Source of the DNA: Bacteroidia bacterium
GTDB taxonomy: Bacteria; Bacteroidota; Bacteroidia; J057
Assembly: GCA_033391075.1 (NCBI GenBank)
Contig: JAWPMV010000001.1
Span: 5,704,001 to 5,768,000 of the forward strand
Length of the DNA stretch: 64,000 nt
Direction: 5' to 3'
Shown in pieces: positions 41,598-53,975 of the stretch. Below the pieces are notes generated by a model. It was not told the DNA's origin, made no database searches, and saw only the letters and a program-made list of their open reading frames with translations. Within the stretch, counting starts at the first letter, position 1, and every line of letters begins with the position of its first letter. The position numbers and the translations under genes were made by a program.

Positions 41598-42902
41598 TCA
41601 ATCTTCTATAGAACCATAAATTATCGCGTACATTCTATCCCAAAAATCTGGCCGAGTAAAAGGAAGGACTTGCGTCATCCCTACAAAGGTGAGATCCTCA
41701 GCAGGATCAATGAAGAATTTTGTATTAAAAACACCTCCCCATTCATAGGTACCGGGAGATTTATGTCCCAAAGCACTTCCGTCTTTTATTTTAAGTTGGA
41801 ATCCCAATCCATAGGTAAGGCCAACTTGTTTAGAATAACGCTCTCCGCTAGCTTTCAGGTCAAGCAATTGATCCGAAGTCATGACTTCTATGGTCTTTCT
41901 GCTTAGGATTCTCGCTTCCTTATAGTTCCCTCCATTCACCAAAGCCTGAATAAATATCGCATAATCATTAGCCGTTCCTGAAAGTCCTCCGCCTCCAGCA
42001 TAGTGATTGGGATCTTCCATATTGGGATAATCGAGATTGGGATCCGGATTTACAAATAGTTTCTTTTCCTGATTATTGTAGGCATAAACCGGAACCAGTC
42101 GATCGTGATTTTCTTTGGGCTGGTAAAACCAGGTATCCTTCATACCCAGGGGATCAAAGATGTGGTTCTTGAAATATTGTGCGAGCGTTTCACCTGATGC
42201 TACTTCTACGATGCGTCCCAGCAACTCCATATTGAGGCCGTACATGTATTTTTCTCCGGGATGAAATACCAGAGGAACTTTGGCGATCTGGGCTGCCATT
42301 TGTTTCGTACTCATTTCCTTGTGAGAAAGACCAAATGCATTGGCGCCTGCTTTGGCGTAGATGGCCTGGATCTTTCCGGGATTAAACGCTCCATAGGTGA
42401 TTCCGGAAGTATGGGTAAGTAAGTGTCGAATCGTTATCGGTTTATTCGCAGGAACGCTGGTATAGCTTGTGTCCGCTTCATTGTAGGATTCCATCACAAC
42501 AGGTCTGGCAAATTCAGGGATGTAATAAAAAATAGGATCATCCAATCCCAATTTCCCTTGCTCATACAACTGCATAATGGAAACCGTTGTTACTGCTTTG
42601 GTCATAGAAGCCAAACGGAAAATATCGTCTTTTTTATAGGGATCATTGCCATCCATAGATCTTTGGCCGAAAGCTTTATTGTAAACCACATTTCCTTTCC
42701 GCATCACCATAAAAACTCCTCCGGGCAAGCTGCCATTATCTATGTATTTCTGGATATGTGCATCCAGGAGACTCAAGCGCTCTTCAGAGATACCTACGAC
42801 CTCAGCATTGCTGTTTGTAACCAGCCGATCATAGTGGCCCTGGCCAAAGGAAAACGAAAGTGAAAGGAGGAAAAGGCTCGTAAATAGCAGTAACTTTTTC
42901 AT
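41598..42902 (-). CDS. Exported serine hydrolase of the beta-lactamase (class C-like) family
   Basis: 434 residues with signal peptide MKKLLLFTSLFLLSLSFSFGQ. The SxxK nucleophile is Ser99-Met-Thr-Lys102 in RLASMTKAVTT; the second-motif tyrosine is Tyr221 in KYMYGLNMELLG; HTSGITYG is typical of the esterase/DD-peptidase-like branch. This family covers esterases, D-aminopeptidases and penicillin-binding-protein-like enzymes as well as AmpC; the sequence alone does not predict beta-lactam resistance. It follows the same strand as the neighbouring hydrolases with a 91-base gap downstream to the M20 gene. Confidence 0.85.
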   Translation of the reverse strand: MKKLLLFTSLFLLSLSFSFGQGHYDRLVTNSNAEVVGISEERLSLLDAHIQKYIDNGSLPGGVFMVMRKGNVVYNKAFGQRSMDGNDPYKKDDIFRLASMTKAVTTVSIMQLYEQGKLGLDDPIFYYIPEFARPVVMESYNEADTSYTSVPANKPITIRHLLTHTSGITYGAFNPGKIQAIYAKAGANAFGLSHKEMSTKQMAAQIAKVPLVFHPGEKYMYGLNMELLGRIVEVASGETLAQYFKNHIFDPLGMKDTWFYQPKENHDRLVPVYAYNNQEKKLFVNPDPNLDYPNMEDPNHYAGGGGLSGTANDYAIFIQALVNGGNYKEARILSRKTIEVMTSDQLLDLKASGERYSKQVGLTYGLGFQLKIKDGSALGHKSPGTYEWGGVFNTKFFIDPAEDLTFVGMTQVLPFTRPDFWDRMYAIIYGSIED

Positions 42903-42999: not shown

Positions 43000-43584
43000 T
43001 TATCGTTCGGCTTTTCTTTTTGTGCAGGATATCTTCCAGGTCGGAAAAGAGAAGGTTTCTCCTACATTTACCCATTCTCCCAACCATTTAAATCCTTCTT
43101 CCGAAATATCATAAAAGCTAATCTTGTACGATCCATCCATTCCATTTGGGGCCTTTTGTTCCATATAAAGGATGATCTTATCATCGACCTTGCCTCCTTC
43201 CCAGGCTGGAAGGCGAGCGGCTGCCGAAGCCTTTGAATAGTAATGGACATACCATTTTGAGCTATCAGCATTAAATTGACGAATACTCCCGGAATAGGTA
43301 CCATCTTCCTTGACCGTCTCATCCTGTACCGCCTGACCATTCATAATATATTTGAACTTCCAGGTCATCTGCACCGGTTCGGCCCAGGTCTGGTCCTGCT
43401 TTCGACTTTCTGAAACACAATCACAGATTCCAATCAGCGGGGCATAATCAGCCACTTCTTTTGGAGCGTCCGGATTGAGCAGGCCAAAGGGATTTTCAGC
43501 AGATACCTCATATGCTTTATACTCCTGTGCAATAAGAGAGAGGGAAAAAATTGAGAGATAAGAGATCAATAGTAGTTTTTTCAT
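43000..43584 (-). CDS. Secreted protein of unknown function (DUF1579-like)
   Basis: 194 residues with a signal peptide (MKKLLLISYLSIFSLSLIAQ). The mature part reads as a beta-barrel or lipocalin-like fold: LIGICDCVSESR, TWKFKYIMNGQAVQDETVKEDGTYSGSIRQFNADSSKWYVHYYS and the final WLGEWVN. Phrases of this type occur in DUF1579-like proteins, but I am not sure of the match. It is the most upstream of the leftward exported genes and the last gene before the repeat array. Confidence 0.6.
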   Translation of the reverse strand: MKKLLLISYLSIFSLSLIAQEYKAYEVSAENPFGLLNPDAPKEVADYAPLIGICDCVSESRKQDQTWAEPVQMTWKFKYIMNGQAVQDETVKEDGTYSGSIRQFNADSSKWYVHYYSKASAAARLPAWEGGKVDDKIILYMEQKAPNGMDGSYKISFYDISEEGFKWLGEWVNVGETFSFPTWKISCTKRKAER

Positions 43585-43683
43585 GTGAAGTAATGGGTTA
43601 AGTGAATAAAAATCTCTCCTTCTTTAGTCTATAACGCCAGGATAGGATAAGGGGTACGCTGAGACTCCTCTTGCTGATGGTAA

Positions 43684-44332
43684 TCTCGATTCTCATTAGG
43701 CAGATTGTAAGTTGCCCCTACAATTCGTGATTTGAATAAATTGGCCTTGCGCGCACTCCTTAATCCTATCAGGAGAAGGGAGTGTGGGCTTGAGGCGGTG
43801 GGTATAGAATTCTTCCGCCACAGGCTCCTTTCCCTTATAGAAGAAACGATCCGTACAAGGTATTCTGAATTCTCATTGGGCTACAATTCGTGATTTGAAT
43901 AAATTGGCCTTGCGCGCACTCCTTAATCCTATCAGGAGAAGGGAGTGTGGGCTTGAGGCGGTGGGTATAGAATTCTTCCGCCACAGGCTCCTTTCCCTTA
44001 AAGAAGAATCGACCCGTACAAGGTATTTTGGATTCTCATGGGGCAGATTATAATCTGCCCCTACAATTGACAATTCTTTACTGGATATGCGCGCACTCCT
44101 TGATCCTATCAGGAGAAGGGAGTGTGGGCTTGAGGCGGTGGGTATAGAATTCTTCCGCCGCAGGCTCCTTTCCCTTATAGAAGAATCGATCCGTACAAGG
44201 TATTTTGGATTCTAATGGGGCAGATTGTAAGCTGCTCCTACAATTCGTGATTTGAATAAATTGGCCTTGCGCGCACTCCTTGATCCTATCAGGAGAAGGG
44301 AGTGTGGGCTTGAGGCGGTGGGTTCTGTAGGG
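43684..44332. repeat. Tandem array of four structured repeats (periods about 163, 177 and 180 bases)
   Basis: Four copies of GCGCGCACTCCTT begin at 43749, 43912, 44089 and 44269. Each unit has a hairpin-forming ACTCCTT ... AGGGAGT segment, a GGCGG ... CCGCC segment, and a palindrome before it; the palindrome is perfect in copy 3 (GGGGCAGATTA then its reverse complement, 44040-44061), imperfect at 43698-43719 and 44217-44238, and deleted in copy 2, which explains the short first period. The last unit is truncated two bases before the ribH stop. Short open frames inside are by-products of the repeat. 43585-43683 holds a possible decayed unit and the upstream region of the DUF1579-like gene. Confidence 0.85.
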
Positions 44333-44334
44333 TT

Positions 44335-44820
44335 TTACAGACTCTTCTGCAAATCAATCATCTCAAGTAGAGCCACAGCAGCTTCTTCACCTTTGTTGCC
44401 GTACTTGCCTCCGGCTCTAGCTTCTGCCTGTTCCTGGGTATCAGGAGTCAGGACGCCAAAAATCACGGGACGATTATGTTTGATACTTACCTGGGTGATG
44501 CCCTGAGCAACCGCATCGCAGATGAAATCAAAATGACGGGTTTCTCCCTGAATCACACAGCCCAGGCATATAACTCCGTCCAGCTTTTCAGCTTCCAGCA
44601 GCATATTGGCGCCTGAGGAGAGTTCATAGGAACCTGGAACGAAGTGAACCTTGACATTGTCTTCTTTCAGATTCGCATCAAGCAAAGTTGCTTTAGCTCC
44701 TTCCAGAAGGGCGCCGGTTATTTTATCGTTCCATTTACTGACGAGGATAGCTACGCGATCATTGCTATGATCACCGCTACCTTCATATTTGATGTGGGAA
44801 AGGTCGTGTCCGCCCGCCAT
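44335..44820 (-). CDS. ribH: 6,7-dimethyl-8-ribityllumazine synthase
   Basis: Penultimate step of riboflavin synthesis: condenses 5-amino-6-ribitylaminouracil with 3,4-dihydroxybutanone phosphate, usually as an icosahedral or pentameric shell. The signatures are RVAILVSKWND, VPGSYELSSGA, CLGCVIQGETRHFDFI (catalytic His96) and FGVLTPDTQEQAEARAG. 161 residues is standard. The stop of the upstream TPR gene and this ATG overlap as TAATG, so translation is coupled. The 3' end directly abuts the structured repeat array. Confidence 0.96.
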   Translation of the reverse strand: MAGGHDLSHIKYEGSGDHSNDRVAILVSKWNDKITGALLEGAKATLLDANLKEDNVKVHFVPGSYELSSGANMLLEAEKLDGVICLGCVIQGETRHFDFICDAVAQGITQVSIKHNRPVIFGVLTPDTQEQAEARAGGKYGNKGEEAAVALLEMIDLQKSL

Positions 44821-45632: not shown

Positions 45633-48600
45633 TTATTCTTTCATAATACGTTTATACGCAGTTCGTTCACCGTCGGAAATCCTCACGAGGTACACTCCTT
45701 CGGCATGCCTGGTCAAGTCAACGCGCTGACGATAGAGGCCAAAAATGTTTTCTTCTACATGTTGGAAAACTTTTCTTCCTCTTGTGTCAGTTACTTCTAT
45801 GGTCAGTTTATCCGCCTGGAAGTCGAAGCCATTCAACTCAACGTAGAAGTCTTCGGTAGTCGGGTTAGGATAAACGCTGATCATAGCGTTGAACTCTTCA
45901 TCTATCGCTACACCTGCCAGAACTTGCTTGGTTGTATCCGTACCACAATCGTTGTAAACGATCAGGGTAACTTCGAAAGCACCAGCCAATCCGTAAGTAT
46001 AGCTTGGATTAAGATCCGTAGAAGTACCGGCTCCATCTCCAAAGTCCCAGAGAACTGAATCAACACCTCCTGTGGAAGAATTGGTAAAGTCATAGGTGAA
46101 GAGATAGTTTGGAGCATTGAAGGTAAAGTCTGCCGTCGGTATGGTATTTACTGTAACATCAACTGTATCAGTTGCACTACAACCATTCGCTTCGGCAACA
46201 ATTACCGTAATACTTCCACTCTGCCTGATAGTTTCTGTTTGAGCGGTTCCTCCACTAGACCACAAAAAGGTGGCTCCAGCGTTTCCTGCATCAAGCACTA
46301 CACTATCACAAGCTACCTGATCCATTCCCAGATCAACGACAGGCTCTGTTCCTCCTGTAATGATGATCTGACCACTATCATCACATCCATTAGCCGTAGT
46401 TACTGTGACACTGATCGTATCAGAAGTACCTGTCGGAGGAGGCATTACCATAATTGTCTGACTGCTTTCACCGGTAGACCACAGGAAGGTAGAACCTACA
46501 TTTCCTGCATCAAGGGTGATCGGATCACAAGCTTCGCGATCGGCTCCCAGATCCACTACGGGTCCTGGCAGGATCGTTACATTCACTGAATCTGTAGTTT
46601 CACAACCCAGTTGGTTAACTGTTACGGAATAAGTTCCGCTCTGATCCACATCCAGGGTTTGAGCAAACTGACCAGCAACTGACCAGATATAGCTAGCTCC
46701 AGGATTTCCTGCATCAAGGGTAACCATATTACACTCCGTACGATCCGGACCAAGGTCTACATCTGGAGCATCATTGATAATGAGTACAGCCGTATCTGAT
46801 GCAGTACATCCAAAGATGTCAACGATGTTGACAACATAAGAACCTGTGGTATCCGCACGTAGAGTTGGAGTAGTGATATTGTTGCCCCAGTCGTAGGATA
46901 CAAAAGTTGGATTAGATGCATCCAAGAGGAATCCTTCACACTCAATTCCATCCGGACCAAGATCTACAGGAGGTACTGGAAGAATTGTACCTGATACAGG
47001 TGTTCTATCACTGGAACAACCGAGGTTTTGATAATACACCCGACCACTAAATGAGCGGTTGGTCAATACCTGGTTATTACTTGCCCCACCAAATGGATAG
47101 GCTACTGAAATACCTGCACTCAGATTAAGACCCGGTCCACCGTAGTTGGAAGTACCAAAGTCATGTGTAAGTCCTGAGATACCTGTTGCGGTAAGGTAGA
47201 TACCGTAAGTAGAGCCTTCTGGGATCGCCAGACCACCTACCGGTACTCTGGTAGCATTACCTTCCCCGGCCGAAACAACACTTGTAGTTCCAAGTAGGGT
47301 CCAGTCATTAGGATTGGTAATCGAGACACCATCGTAAGAAGTGGTGTAAGACGAATCCAGATAGTATACCTCAACATTAATTGTTGGGCCAGGGGCACCA
47401 TCAATGTTTATATCAAAGCTATCTACCTCAATCGGACCTCCAATTGCAGTCAGGTCAAACATACTACCATCCTGCGCATTGAAGAGTTCGTTAAGAGAAG
47501 TCTCCAGTTGCTGAGGTCTAAAGCTTCTGGCTTCTACATAATAATTGATAGAAGAAGTAAGCATCGGAGTCTGGTAGCTGGTTCCGGTAGCAATCAGGTT
47601 ACCACCTGTGATTGAGTCGTACCAGTAGAACTCATCTGCAATACCCGTTACAGCCAGGTCAAACATAGCCGTATCAGTGAAACATACAGAATCATTGACT
47701 GCTAGTGGTGCCTCTGGAGAAACTGCGAATACTGCAACTCCTACAGCTGTGTTGTTTCCAAAGAACTGATCAGAGCCCAGACCTGTAAAGGCAGAGATGG
47801 TCATAACACCTCCAGTATTAGAGTTGAATCCTCCAATAACCATAGTAGCAGTATCTCCGGCATCCAGGGTACCATTAAAGTTACCATTCACTGTTGCAAC
47901 TGTACCACCACTAATATTAGCAGAAACCGGGAAGTTGCTTTGAGCATTGGTTCCGTAGTTTACAATCTCAACTTCTATGATCGTAGAATCATTGCCACAA
48001 TCTTCACCCGTAGGTGCAAGGATATTGGTTACCCCAACATCATTAGCCAGCAATTCACGGATTTCAATATTATCAAGTGCAATATCACCACGGAAGGTAG
48101 TACCTGTTGGGTCCGCAGTAATCTGACCTGTGAAGGTAATATTGATGGTTTGTCCAATGAATGGGGCAAGATCAATGGTATCAGTGATCCATGGATCATT
48201 AGAATCAAATTGTTGCTCTCCAATCAACAGACCAAGGTTGGTTTGTCCGGCAGCAGTCTCTCCATCAATACTCAGGAACCCAATAGAAGATCCATACATA
48301 TGGTAAGAGTAAAAGAGCTTAGGATTGGTAGCAGTTGTCAAATCCAGACATCCGGTAGACAATCTTGCCTGGTCGCTATCAGCAGAACCTGATGCTTCCA
48401 TATAGATGTATCCACCTCCACCAGTAACGTCATCACTTGGACCTGTGTTAGTAGAACCTGTTCCATTGAAATTCACTTCCCATGGCAGATCAGCAAACTG
48501 ATCATTTACCAGGTCAGCAAAAATCTCTTCACCATCAGGATAGTTATTGAAGTTATCTGAGATAGGTAGAGGTCCGCCAGGACTACTTTCGATAGTTACC

Positions 48601-51600
48601 GATAGTGTATCATTGAAATTGTTTGCATCTCCGTTGATACCGCTTGGCCAGGCCTTAAGGGTATAAGGTCCGGGAGGAGAAAGGTCAACATTGCTGATAA
48701 CAACCGGAATTCCTCTGTTAGGAAGAATCTGATCATTGATAGTTATGCTCTGTTGAGTTCCACCATTCAGGATATAGTTGAAAGTAAAGGGTCCATTCAA
48801 GGTATCTCTACCCAGGTTGGATACACCTACTACTATACTGTCATTGGCAGTCAACCCACATTCTCCTAATGGATAAAGGAGGGTAGTTGCACCAGCATCC
48901 TGATCAATCAGACCTGTGATTTTGATGTTATCAAAGGCAACACCATCATCCTGAACAGAACCATCAGAACCGAAGGCAATTCGCATCAGTACTTTAGGTT
49001 GTCCACCCAATCCGAACAATCTGTTTTGGGCAGTTACCCAACCACCAGAACCATTTCCAGAGATATCGCGTCCGGACCATCCTTGCGGCTGGCCACCAGG
49101 ACTACCGTTGATCGTATTGTCTGTATACCAGTTGTCTGGATCGCCGACATTACCAATAGTTTGCCAGCTGGCTCCATCATCAATAGAGGTCTGCAGAGCA
49201 GCACCATCCCAGCTGAATTCGGCATTCCACCATACATCCAGGAATACGGTTGGGGAATCAAGGGTCGAGAAGTCGAAACAAGGTCCTAATAGGAAGGAAT
49301 TTTCACTTGCGTTATAAGATCCTGTACCTAATCCACCTGTTACCCAAGCATTGACACCGGAAGAGGCTCCAACGATGGTGTTTTTAGCAGGTGTACCAAA
49401 GGCCCATGAATTATTGGTACCATCGGAAGACCAACCCCCGTTTCCGGATTCGAAGTCTTCAACATATGGGTAAGAAGAAACAACCGGACGGCTGTCAATC
49501 ACATAGCTAACTGTATCATTAAACTTATTGATATCATTAGCTGCATTTGTAACTACCCCAATGTCATAAGTACCAGCAGCACTCAAGTCAGCTCTTGTCG
49601 CAAAGGTGTGCGTAATAGTAGCACCTGGTGCAATCGTATCACCAACAGTTTCTGTGATATAAGTACCGCCATTGATGTTATAAGATAGATCTACTCCAAT
49701 GATCGTATCAGGACCCACATTCGAGTAACTGATTTCTACAATAGAAGTATCTGCTAATCCACAATCACTTGTTGGCTGAATCAAGGCAGTAGGCTCAACA
49801 TCTTCTGGAGAGAAGAGGATGATTTTCACATCATCTATCGCCATATCACCCGTAAATCCATTTCCTCTGACACCTACAAACTCAATCTGAATAGTCTCTG
49901 TTCCTACAAAGTTCAGATCAACGGTATCGGTTTCCCACGGATCTGTATCTGCCGTTTGGAAAGGTCCAGAACGAGTAAATACGATCGTATCAAGCGTAGG
50001 CGTGATGATGTGCACTTCAAGCGTACCCATATCGGCACCAAACATATGCCAACCAAAAGCAAGCTTTGGATCAGGGTTCACACTAAGGTCTACACATGGC
50101 GAAAGGAAACTATAAGTATCTCCCTGTCCACCACCAGAGGTTTCTGTGTAGAAGTAGGTACCAGCAGCAGTTCCTAAGGTAAGGTCAACTGCAGGACCTG
50201 TACCTGAAGAACCTGTACCGGCCTGATCAGGTCTCCATCCAACAAAAGGAGTTGGGTTAGTTATTACCCAACCATTGTTAGTTACAGGATCGAAGTTTTC
50301 AAAATCTTCGGTCAGGGTACCCAATTGCAAAGGAATAGATTGCAGCGTAACAGAAGCTGTCGTATCATTTCCACTCAAGGTATCTCCAGGAGCTGCCACA
50401 TAAGCAGTAAGTGTATAAATACCCGGAGTTGTTAAATCAGCAGGTACAGTAATTGTATAATCCAATGTATCATCAGGATTCAAACTACCAGCACTTATCA
50501 CAGAACTCAGGCTCTGAGGGTTAGGTCCGGAAATATTTACACCTACTGTGGTATTATCTGTACTAAAGTCAAGCGTAAGGCTTCCTTTATTGATCAACTG
50601 AACAATCACATCTTCGGTTCCACTGAAACAAGAAGAACCAAGAGGAGAAAGAATCGCTTCCGCTCTCATATCTACTGGAGGACCCTGGAAGATATTTACA
50701 TTATCGAAAGCCATACCATCGGTTTGAGAGAAAGCTCCTGAACCGAAGGCCATTCTAAGAATTACCTGAGATTCACCAGCCAAACCATCAAGGTTGTGGC
50801 GAGCTGTTACCCACTGACCAGGACCTCCACCAAATCCGGTAGTACCTGACCAACCTTCAGAAGATCCACCTGGCTGGGCGTCGATAGTATTGTCGCTGAA
50901 CCAGTTATTGGGATCCCCAAAGGCACCCACATTTTGCCAGCTTTGGCCGCCATCTATAGAAGACTGTAATACAGCACCATCTGTACTGAAGAAAATCTCC
51001 CACCAGATATCAAGGCTTATAGAAGCTGAAGATAAACCAGAGAAGTCGAAACATGGAGAAACTACCCATGATTGCTCATTGGCATTGTAATCACCAGTCG
51101 CCAAACCACCCGTTACCCAGGCATTTACTCCCGAAGAAGCACCTTGAATAACAGACTTGGCAGGTGTACCAAATGTCCAACTATTATTTACTCCACCAGC
51201 AAGCCATCCACCTTCACCATTTTCAAAGTCTTCAGAATATGGGAAAGTTGCTACCTGTGGATAGGTAATCAGGCTCAATCTTACGGTATCATTCTGGTTG
51301 AGGGTATCAGCAGGCGTAACAGAAGTAGTAACGATTGTGATATCGTGGAAACCAGGAGCAGAAAGATCTGCTGTAGCGGTGAATGTATAAGCAAGCGTAT
51401 CACCAGGAGCGATCGTAGTTGGGATCGTTTCTGGAGTTGTGAATGCACCACCATCAACTGAGAAGGAAGCAACTGTATTTGCCAATGGAGAAGATCCAAA
51501 GTTCACAACAGAAACACTTACAGCCTCATTTGCAGTCAATGCACAACCAGATAATGGAGCCAATACTTCATCAGCCAGGGCATCGATAGGTGCAGGCTCT

Positions 51601-53975
51601 TTGATAGAAATGTCATCTATCGCCATATCACCCGTAAATCCATTTCCTCTGGTTCCTACGAAACGAAGCTGAATAGTCTCACCTGCGAAAGAAGTCAAAT
51701 CCGCAATCGCTTCCAGATAGGGATCACTTTGAATTTGCTGCTGTTGTCCAGTGGCCAGGAATACAGAAGTTTCTGTTCCATCAGCCTGTACAACTTTTGC
51801 TTCCAAAGATCCCATATCAGCACCATGCATATGGTACCAGAAAGAGAGCTTAGGCAAGCTGGCTCCAGAAAGATCAATACAATTGGTCGTCAGTGTATAG
51901 GTATCACCCTGTACACCACCAGAAGTTTCCGTATAGAAATATAGACCTGCACCTGTCATCAGGGTATGGTCCGTATTAGGTCCTGTTCCGGATGATCCTG
52001 TACCTCCCTGATCTACCAACCAACCTACTCCATTAGAAGCGCTGGTAGTAGTTACATCCCATCCTGTGGGAAGAGGTGCTCCAGGAATAAAGCTTTGGAG
52101 ATCCTCAAAGTATGGAAGGACATCAGGCGTAAAGTGTTCAACAGAAAAGCTGATCGTATCATTGAAACCATCCGTATCACCAGGAATGGTGAACCAGGCT
52201 CTTATATCATAAACAGCTGGTGTACTCAAATCAGCACCTGTAGTAAATGAATAGGTAGCAGTATCTCCAGCATTCAGGGTATTGCTGAATTGCTCGGATA
52301 CAGGCGTTCCTCCATTTACACTATAAGAAATAGGGAAATTGCTGATTGCAGTAGTACCCACATTTGTAAAACTAAGAGTCACAGTCTCTGCAGCTGAAAG
52401 GCCACAACCACTGTTTGGAGCACTGCTGCTAAGCATAGATCCATTGATCGGAGGAAGTTCAAGGATGTTGATGTTGTCAAAAGCAAATCCATCATCCTGT
52501 ACAGATCCATCTGATCCAAAGGCGATTCTCAATAGAACACTTGGCTGACCGCCTAGACCATCCAACAGATGCTCAGCGCGTACCCAGCCACCAGAACCAT
52601 TATTGGTGCTCACACGGCCAGACCAACCTTCTTGCTGTCCACCGGGATTACCATTGATTGTGTTGTCGGTATACCAATTATTTGGATCTCCAACAGCTCC
52701 TACATTCTGCCAGGTCTGTCCTGCATCTAAAGAAGATTGAAGGACAGCTCCATCCCAGCTAAATTCCGAGTTCCACCAAACGTCCATTCTTATCAATGGG
52801 TTTGTCAGGCTAGAGAAATCGAAACAGGGTCCATTGACCGCAGAGTTTTCATTGGCATTATAGGAACCAGAAAGGCCTCCATTTACCCAGGCATTCAAGC
52901 CGGAAGAAGCTCCCTGAATGGTTGACTTTTGGGGAGTGCCAAATGCCCAGGTACTATTCTGAGAATTCAGTACATCTGGTGTCCATCCTCCAAAACCTGC
53001 TTCAAAATCTTCGAAATAAGGGAAGGAGTTTACCAAAGGAATAGAAATGATGGTTGCTGAAACCGTATCATTCATATTCAGGGTATCCTGCGGACTAGTG
53101 GCAACTACCACCAGCGTATGCGAACCAGATACAGAAAGGTCCGCAGTAGCAGTAAAGGTGAAGTCAACGGTATCGCCAGGTGCGATCGGACCAGGGATGG
53201 CTTCCGGAGCACCGAAAGGACTGCCATCGAGTGAGAATGAAGCAACTGCGTTATTTAGCGCCAGAGCTCCCTGGTTGATTACCTGTACAGTTACTGCCTC
53301 TGAAGCAGTAAGTCCACAATCAGATTGTGGAGAAAGAAGAGAATTGGCAAGGACGTCTACATCCGGTGCCTGAAATAAAGCTACATCATCTATAGCCATA
53401 TCTCCTGTAAAGTCGCCTCCATGAATACTCACAAAGGAAACCTGTACATTCATCCCAACATAAGCAGTCAAGTCTATAATGGCCTGTCTGTAAGGCTCTG
53501 AGTCAGACTGCTGTTGTTGGCCACTCAAGGACCATACTGTAGAATCTGTAGTCCCGTCAAGAATATGTACCTCAAGGGTACCCATTCCAGCACCAAACAT
53601 ATGATACCAGAATGTAAGACGGGGTGCAGTAGTTCCTACCAGGTCTATACACGGAGAAGTGAGTGCGAACGTATCACCCAAAGCTGTAGGGGATGAAGTT
53701 TCCGTGTACATGTAAATACCGGCACTGGTTCCGGTTGTGTGGTCAGTAGCAGGGCCGGTACCACCAGATCCTGTACCTCCATTATCAACAAACCAGCCCA
53801 AAGAGCCAGTGTTGTTTGAAGTACGTGTCCAGTTTTGACCTACCGTTCCCGGGCTACCTGTTGTAAACGTTTCAAAGTCTTCCAAATAAGGGACAGTACT
53901 GTTGGGAGCACAAGGCTGCGCCATCAGTACAGAACCCAGAAGACATGACGCTAAAAAGGTAAGTAATTGCTTCAT
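45633..53975 (-). CDS. Giant modular cell-surface protein with T9SS sorting domain
   Basis: 2780 residues. Signal peptide MKQLLTFLASCLLGSVLMAQ. Then, to about residue 2080, seven alternating pairs: a MAM-like/choice-of-anchor J jelly-roll (opening PYFEDFE-like, closing D[DN][IV]) and a CARDB-like Ig module (opening S-x2-CGL, closing D-x-F-NDT). The jelly-rolls come in two subtypes, odd (GDMAIDDV) and even (DGxAFDNI). After that come an Ig-like module (about 2080-2165), a beta-rich module (to about 2325), four DLGPD-x-C-x-LDAGN-type repeats (about 2330-2600), a PKD domain (about 2605-2690, WDFGDG) and the C-terminal type A T9SS sorting domain (YPNPTTEDFYVEL ... GVYLVRISDG). It is exported by T9SS and attached to or released from the surface; an adhesin or gliding-related role is likely. 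Confidence 0.88.
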   Translation of the reverse strand: MKQLLTFLASCLLGSVLMAQPCAPNSTVPYLEDFETFTTGSPGTVGQNWTRTSNNTGSLGWFVDNGGTGSGGTGPATDHTTGTSAGIYMYTETSSPTALGDTFALTSPCIDLVGTTAPRLTFWYHMFGAGMGTLEVHILDGTTDSTVWSLSGQQQQSDSEPYRQAIIDLTAYVGMNVQVSFVSIHGGDFTGDMAIDDVALFQAPDVDVLANSLLSPQSDCGLTASEAVTVQVINQGALALNNAVASFSLDGSPFGAPEAIPGPIAPGDTVDFTFTATADLSVSGSHTLVVVATSPQDTLNMNDTVSATIISIPLVNSFPYFEDFEAGFGGWTPDVLNSQNSTWAFGTPQKSTIQGASSGLNAWVNGGLSGSYNANENSAVNGPCFDFSSLTNPLIRMDVWWNSEFSWDGAVLQSSLDAGQTWQNVGAVGDPNNWYTDNTINGNPGGQQEGWSGRVSTNNGSGGWVRAEHLLDGLGGQPSVLLRIAFGSDGSVQDDGFAFDNINILELPPINGSMLSSSAPNSGCGLSAAETVTLSFTNVGTTAISNFPISYSVNGGTPVSEQFSNTLNAGDTATYSFTTGADLSTPAVYDIRAWFTIPGDTDGFNDTISFSVEHFTPDVLPYFEDLQSFIPGAPLPTGWDVTTTSASNGVGWLVDQGGTGSSGTGPNTDHTLMTGAGLYFYTETSGGVQGDTYTLTTNCIDLSGASLPKLSFWYHMHGADMGSLEAKVVQADGTETSVFLATGQQQQIQSDPYLEAIADLTSFAGETIQLRFVGTRGNGFTGDMAIDDISIKEPAPIDALADEVLAPLSGCALTANEAVSVSVVNFGSSPLANTVASFSVDGGAFTTPETIPTTIAPGDTLAYTFTATADLSAPGFHDITIVTTSVTPADTLNQNDTVRLSLITYPQVATFPYSEDFENGEGGWLAGGVNNSWTFGTPAKSVIQGASSGVNAWVTGGLATGDYNANEQSWVVSPCFDFSGLSSASISLDIWWEIFFSTDGAVLQSSIDGGQSWQNVGAFGDPNNWFSDNTIDAQPGGSSEGWSGTTGFGGGPGQWVTARHNLDGLAGESQVILRMAFGSGAFSQTDGMAFDNVNIFQGPPVDMRAEAILSPLGSSCFSGTEDVIVQLINKGSLTLDFSTDNTTVGVNISGPNPQSLSSVISAGSLNPDDTLDYTITVPADLTTPGIYTLTAYVAAPGDTLSGNDTTASVTLQSIPLQLGTLTEDFENFDPVTNNGWVITNPTPFVGWRPDQAGTGSSGTGPAVDLTLGTAAGTYFYTETSGGGQGDTYSFLSPCVDLSVNPDPKLAFGWHMFGADMGTLEVHIITPTLDTIVFTRSGPFQTADTDPWETDTVDLNFVGTETIQIEFVGVRGNGFTGDMAIDDVKIILFSPEDVEPTALIQPTSDCGLADTSIVEISYSNVGPDTIIGVDLSYNINGGTYITETVGDTIAPGATITHTFATRADLSAAGTYDIGVVTNAANDINKFNDTVSYVIDSRPVVSSYPYVEDFESGNGGWSSDGTNNSWAFGTPAKNTIVGASSGVNAWVTGGLGTGSYNASENSFLLGPCFDFSTLDSPTVFLDVWWNAEFSWDGAALQTSIDDGASWQTIGNVGDPDNWYTDNTINGSPGGQPQGWSGRDISGNGSGGWVTAQNRLFGLGGQPKVLMRIAFGSDGSVQDDGVAFDNIKITGLIDQDAGATTLLYPLGECGLTANDSIVVGVSNLGRDTLNGPFTFNYILNGGTQQSITINDQILPNRGIPVVISNVDLSPPGPYTLKAWPSGINGDANNFNDTLSVTIESSPGGPLPISDNFNNYPDGEEIFADLVNDQFADLPWEVNFNGTGSTNTGPSDDVTGGGGYIYMEASGSADSDQARLSTGCLDLTTATNPKLFYSYHMYGSSIGFLSIDGETAAGQTNLGLLIGEQQFDSNDPWITDTIDLAPFIGQTINITFTGQITADPTGTTFRGDIALDNIEIRELLANDVGVTNILAPTGEDCGNDSTIIEVEIVNYGTNAQSNFPVSANISGGTVATVNGNFNGTLDAGDTATMVIGGFNSNTGGVMTISAFTGLGSDQFFGNNTAVGVAVFAVSPEAPLAVNDSVCFTDTAMFDLAVTGIADEFYWYDSITGGNLIATGTSYQTPMLTSSINYYVEARSFRPQQLETSLNELFNAQDGSMFDLTAIGGPIEVDSFDINIDGAPGPTINVEVYYLDSSYTTSYDGVSITNPNDWTLLGTTSVVSAGEGNATRVPVGGLAIPEGSTYGIYLTATGISGLTHDFGTSNYGGPGLNLSAGISVAYPFGGASNNQVLTNRSFSGRVYYQNLGCSSDRTPVSGTILPVPPVDLGPDGIECEGFLLDASNPTFVSYDWGNNITTPTLRADTTGSYVVNIVDIFGCTASDTAVLIINDAPDVDLGPDRTECNMVTLDAGNPGASYIWSVAGQFAQTLDVDQSGTYSVTVNQLGCETTDSVNVTILPGPVVDLGADREACDPITLDAGNVGSTFLWSTGESSQTIMVMPPPTGTSDTISVTVTTANGCDDSGQIIITGGTEPVVDLGMDQVACDSVVLDAGNAGATFLWSSGGTAQTETIRQSGSITVIVAEANGCSATDTVDVTVNTIPTADFTFNAPNYLFTYDFTNSSTGGVDSVLWDFGDGAGTSTDLNPSYTYGLAGAFEVTLIVYNDCGTDTTKQVLAGVAIDEEFNAMISVYPNPTTEDFYVELNGFDFQADKLTIEVTDTRGRKVFQHVEENIFGLYRQRVDLTRHAEGVYLVRISDGERTAYKRIMKE

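Follow-up and report, generated by a model that had tools for sequence, protein, structure and literature searches.

The tandem array which adjoins the vitamin B2 gene ribH of this Bacteroidia genome probably arose when one member of a dispersed, non-autonomous, REPIN/MITE-like family of non-coding repeats was amplified locally, head to tail. Complete elements are inverted doublets in which two similar hairpin units carry conserved tags on the outside, and copies lie outside called genes, many of them abutting stop codons. On the best reading, the family is a new one of REPIN/MITE-like repeats, tagged neither with GTAG nor with CGTC and holding other REPs in its spacer. It is presumably mobile, and any role of its elements at the RNA level is putative.

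The array behind ribH

The window, i.e. the whole stretch of 64,000 nucleotides that was analysed, corresponds to C1:5704001-5768000 of a 9.49 Mb genome in five contigs. It contains four direct copies with start-to-start spacings of 163, 177 and 180 bases, so that the four-copy array described in the earlier note was recovered when the spacings were recomputed. Tandem Repeats Finder placed the array at 43718-44323 with a score of 800, a second row with a score of 686 representing the same array, and the sole other tandem array it found within the window scored 52. The elements of the array and the two genes beside it lie on the minus strand. The array is flanked by the ribH stop, 11 bases from its end, and by the start of a 194-aa open reading frame (ORF). 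The upstream gene on its strand, ribH (44335..44820; Pfam DMRL_synthase, TIGR00114), encodes 6,7-dimethyl-8-ribityllumazine synthase, and the downstream ORF (43000..43584) is without Pfam or NCBIfam match.

Read on the strand of ribH, the repeating entity is an element of 159-176 bases with inverted ends. Its left half, termed A, consists of the tag ACCCACCGCCTCARGCCC and a hairpin; its right half, termed C, consists of a related hairpin followed by the tag in inverted orientation. The conserved outer tags read ACCC.YCCGC..CAAGCCC at one end and GGGCTTG..GCGG..GGGT at the other, and the A and C halves whose tags were inspected have no terminal unpaired GTAG or CGTC. The units delimited earlier combine the tail of an element with the head of its successor. 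The ACTCC/GGAGT stem proposed for them is real; the arms of the GGCGG/CCGCC stem straddle the element junction and, within a single element, these motifs are the two opposite ends. Three models were used in the searches: R1, built from 26 copies of a 62-base core of A; R2, for the right half; and R3, a broader right-half model derived from 55 C matches of three genomes.

Element 1, the first behind the ribH stop, is complete (44148..44323; R1 and R3 matches, alignment) and comprises an A half, a spacer with a GTAG-tagged REP, and a C half. The A half (44261..44323) starts with the tag ACCCACCGCCTCAAGCCC, followed by the hairpin CACTCC..GGAGTG, and is defined by an R1 match and by pair counts over 26 copies, whereas the C half (44148..44202), a hairpin followed by the tag GCCTGCGGCGGAAGAATT, is defined by an R3 match and pair counts over 53 distinct copies. 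The palindrome in between (44217..44241) matches the GTAG pattern with two mismatches. Element 2 (43971..44143) is also complete, as supported by R1 at 44081-44143, R3 at 43971-44025 and sequence identities, and has an exact pattern match at 44040..44064 in a spacer unlike that of the others. Element 3 (43808..43966; R1 43904-43966, R3 43808-43862) has complete ends and lacks 17 bases of the GTAG-REP palindrome at approximately 43876..43886. Both the sequence and the 17-base alignment gap thus bear out the earlier observation that the palindrome GGGGCAGATTA is present in the array and missing from its second unit in window order. Element 4 (about 43690..43803; R1 43741-43803) is truncated: it retains the A half, the spacer and a REP without a C half, R3 finding no C match between 42585 and 43807, and its degenerate REP palindrome (43697..43721) was recognised by eye and is absent from the pattern matches.

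Elements 1, 3 and 4 share a common spacer, whereas the spacer of element 2 has 74 to 80 percent identity to theirs; given this divergence, the array is a mosaic and not a set of four fresh copies. Slippage or unequal recombination between tandem copies may have produced the array, and slippage would also account for the palindrome lost from element 3. Elsewhere in the window, a 15-base tandem repeat of 2.7 copies (42005-42044) lies within the ORF at 41598-42902, and a 2780-aa ORF at 45633-53975 is rich in repeats, its C-terminal end presumably resembling a type IX secretion sorting domain.

Dispersal, relatives and presumed mobility

A search for further copies, as proposed in the earlier note, returned 37 matches in the genome when the whole array was used as query, the array included, which excludes the case in which no other copies exist. 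R1 detected at least 52 A matches (E<=0.01) in 37 loci and R2 at least 39 C matches, these copy numbers being lower bounds as no more than 150 candidates per genome were scored with R1 and R2; the broader R3 detected 60. Half of the A matches (26/52) are accompanied by a C, read on the same strand and no more than 320 bases away; 25 of the 39 C matches take part, one of them serving two A. The other 26 have no C match, and some of them show other right ends by eye.

The relation between the halves emerges from loci where a single model recognises both. R3 alone matches the two halves, inverted and with tags outside, at L111, L080, L175, L176, L177 and L178, with weaker double matches at L114, L115 and L116 (E 0.0009, 0.0015 and 0.07). 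At L080, L175, L176, L177, L115 and L116, hits of R1 coincide with hits of R3 in position and strand. A and C are therefore taken to be two diverged versions of a single unit, although a direct comparison of their profiles gives weak similarity (best E 0.024). Two inverted units and a spacer, the arrangement by which REPINs are recognised, are found both in the 26 of 52 A with an inverted C and in the doublets detected by one model. The family also fits the description of a MITE, being short, non-coding, dispersed and bounded by terminal inverted repeats.

Outside the genome studied, R1 matched A in none of 30 relatives, none of them of the same genus, 21 of which were covered again. R3, applied to 13 genomes of the family, gave 60 matches in the genome itself, 14 in G009, 11 in G010 and two weak ones in G004, while the remaining nine gave no match, so that dispersed C units occur in a further two genera of this family (G009 and G010). 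At the inspected places in G009, no inverted partner of C is visible by eye. In G010, the right halves at L183, L184, L185, L187 and L188 appear nearly identical by eye; in front of them stands an inverted AACCCC end, which in single cases reads AACCCCC or GACTCCC, a partner seen by eye only, as R3 matches the right half alone there. This near-identity suggests recent spread. At L183, L185, L187 and L188, the outer flanks are similar as well.

Neither A nor C was found near ribH in 11 relatives, among which there is no genome of the same genus. Over a sample of 395 genomes of the phylum, R3 matched only the genome itself; since the strict filters recovered only 14 of its 60 matches, absence from this sample is weak evidence. 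A search of a contig collection with the exact A pattern, from which near records of the genome itself were possibly excluded, gave one Leucobacter locus, judged to be a chance match and rejected. Searches for carriage on phages, plasmids or viral contigs gave no match.

The elements would spread as non-autonomous REPIN/MITE-like DNA, their single-stranded hairpins possibly being handled by a nuclease encoded elsewhere. The linked RAYT transposase for which the earlier note suggested a search was sought among Y1_Tnp genes, and this candidate was rejected. The genome encodes one Y1_Tnp protein (154 aa), which scores above the Pfam cut-off and below the NCBIfam IS200 and RAYT cut-offs; within 1.5 kb of its gene there is no A match and C reaches chance level only (best E 0.52). 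Likewise, none of the 23 Y1_Tnp loci of family members has a unit in flanks of up to 1.5 kb. The gene itself (L029:1465-1929; G000 C1 about 1090629-1091093) is an orphan between ORFs named, by reading, as ComEC-like and crotonase-like, and its motifs (DHVH, late RRQEKIH) recall subclass 1.2 in the available part of the HuH survey (PMC6006769).

A wider reading, tentative and rather unlikely as a whole, would make of these repeats a third REP-type class. It would comprise inverted doublets of asymmetric build that share a long tag and occur in several genera of one family. GTAG and other REPs would use the spacer as a landing site, and the doublets would be moved by an unlinked nuclease that is not a standard RAYT.

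Hairpins and neighbouring genes

Paired changes were counted in both hairpins against shuffled and slid controls. In the A hairpin (26 copies), 18 cells are changed on both sides compared to 7.3 in shuffles, with none of 500 reaching 18, and in the C hairpin (53 distinct copies) 14 cells are changed compared to 3.6, again with 0 of 500. Other measures gave 246/500 for both-side-changed pairs and 500/500 for pair types in A, A3 being fitted to its model, and 14/500 and 199/500, respectively, in C; by these measures C is not clearly distinguished from the controls, and A is not distinguished at all. An earlier test of pairing at the A hairpin tip (0/10000 permutations) is ranked below these counts because 9 of the 52 copies were unparsed, two were mis-parsed and kinship was ignored. 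The inverted ends show no covariation: in 20 rows from 25 elements, two rows being from one array, ends of the same element do not pair better than ends exchanged between elements (p 0.62). A conserved RNA stem closing the element was rejected on this basis, and an outer stem without covariation fits sequence-conserved terminal repeats of the MITE type better than an RNA stem.

No called gene overlaps any A match, the gene calls at these loci being codon-score calls which leave 5 of the 37 loci unclassified. The 32 classified loci lie in 16 convergent, 14 co-directional and 2 divergent gaps; those of the window of at least 120 bases, that of the array included, comprise 2 convergent, 9 co-directional and 7 divergent ones. 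Among the 14 co-directional loci, the A end is directed towards the stop codon in 8 and the C end in 6. Where genes converge or A faces the stop codon of a co-directional gene, 19 of 24 loci have the tag at -15 to +25 bases relative to that codon. Some loci show a distance of -1, and there the stop codon ends with the first A of the tag.

The position behind stop codons, together with the paired changes in both hairpins, would suit a functional 3'-end RNA, transcribed from the gene and selected by the host, whose multi-arm fold protects or ends the mRNA. We regard this as unlikely. Many whole elements do fold into a closed multi-arm shape: the element at C1:6306884 reaches -113 kcal/mol, a value given without shuffled control, and the insert-free element at C1:4618130 folds better than 200 of 200 shuffles (z -3.03). 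However, element 1, which has a degenerate C half, has only a slight advantage over its shuffles in folding (z -1.94; 5/200 as good), and the closing stem lacks covariation. The six loci oriented oppositely to co-directional genes and the two divergent ones are also at odds with a 3'-end role, as is the lack of A matches among the 30 relatives, and proximity to gene 3' ends is reported for REPs generally in the available text of PMC3733652.

The alternative raised in the earlier note, that of repeated structured RNAs, fared no better, and a known structured RNA was rejected as a candidate: Rfam gave no match in the window at gathering score and, at a relaxed threshold over six loci, one chance-level snoRNA hit below the cut-off (E 0.19). 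Its comparison with REP/BIME-like elements held, in view of the dispersed palindromic copies outside called genes and of the inverted doublets. No terminator-like site (GC-rich hairpin and T run) occurs at 43500-44500, where 1.2 are expected from shuffles, and the same scan gave 2 promoter-like sites against 1.4 expected. A REPIN/MITE-like family would not require a host function; if transcription of a gene ran on into a copy, the mRNA would gain hairpins at its 3' end, and for the cell the family is probably ordinary.

Other arrays, spacer repeats and known systems

At 9 of the 37 A loci, between two and four copies lie on the same strand within 1 kb, spaced by 121 to 330 bases at eight of these loci and by 461 at the ninth. 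These loci, and the whole elements joined head to tail by a short, like junction in the window, could indicate that transposition itself, e.g. insertion of head-to-tail circles, makes the arrays without later recombination, an explanation to which we give a small chance. Against it, other arrays repeat DNA beyond one element, with periods of 293 at L020 and 330 at L012, which segment duplication fits better. L012 (G000 C1:6174300-6176400) has four copies of a unit formed by a full A-REP-C element and part of a second. L020 (G000 C1:4267300-4269000) has three copies and includes a further repeat around GCAGAGCCCAT..GGGCTCTGCGATTTTTGCCC, which is present also at C1:5848823.

Spacers contain either a GTAG-tagged REP or a repeat whose ends are GTCATCTCGAG and CTTCGAGATGAC, and some contain neither. 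When at most 3 mismatches are allowed, the GTAG pattern has 40 strand matches at 27 places in the genome and its reversed control has 0. The palindrome which the earlier note called REP-like is indeed tagged like known REPs; it is only a passenger of the spacer. That the GTAG palindrome is the only mobile REP, with A and C as an old, passive palindrome on which it lands, is a very unlikely explanation: GTAG palindromes occur apart from A too and GTAG-REPs are known within longer palindromes (PMC3733652, in the text available), yet A-C pairs exist with other inserts or with no GTAG insert (C1:4618130, C1:7820104, C1:6331938) and dispersed C units are found in two further genera. The spacers of L114 and L115 (G000 C1:488755, 6651813) have a GTCATTGCGAG..CTCGCAATGAC doublet, which we take to resemble CGTC-type repeats.

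BOX elements of pneumococcus are intergenic repeats of modular build, in which the end modules are fixed and the middle varies, a layout which the present elements would share. As in REPINs (PMC3116915), two inverted hairpin units enclose a less conserved spacer and copies are extragenic, and tandem REP arrays are described in the same paper. In contrast to what its available text gives for REPINs, the A/C halves are unequal and have no GTAG-type tag, the conserved tag is about 18 bases long, copies are fewer and no linked RAYT was found.

The GTAG- and CGTC-tagged REP superfamilies (PMC3733652) are likewise short tagged palindromes, intergenic and close to gene 3' ends, whose ends supply stop codons; they occur nested in longer palindromes and in clusters repeated in tandem with flanking DNA. 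The spacer palindrome carries GTAG, whereas the A and C halves carry neither tag. In the available part of that paper, Di Nocera et al. name Bacteroidetes only under CGTC repeats. The atypical hairpins that accompany Y1 transposases of subclass 2.6 in Bacteroidetes (PMC6006769, in part) are also REP-like structures that depart from the GT[AG]G rule and have further copies in the genome of the host. Those hairpins flank the transposase gene, whereas A/C units were found beside no Y1_Tnp gene; the distinction is by description only, and the two may be identical in sequence.

The MITE BrickBuilt of Porphyromonas gingivalis, as far as the available text of PMC4596501 describes it, is similarly short, non-coding and intergenic with inverted ends, and in both cases a tandem array is associated with a miniature element. 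The repeated unit of BrickBuilt measures 23 bases and lies within a single element, whereas here whole elements of 159-176 bases are repeated; no significant target duplication was found for the A/C elements (mean best match 3.43 versus 2.85 permuted, p 0.079; 14 of 26 elements, arrays left out).

No report of the tag was found in the literature available in part, where sequences cannot be searched. The kind of repeat is known and does not look like a new machine; the tag and the nesting of REP in REP appear new. If true, REP/REPIN-type repeats would be extended with a new tag, and one REP family nested inside another would preserve successive layers of repeat activity. Palindromes GTAGGGACAGATTATAATCTGTCCCTAC, in which GTAG is read inwards at either end, occur at G000 C1:701799, 3750653, 781743 and other places, and two of the three inspected adjoin apparent 5S rRNA genes, recognised by eye.
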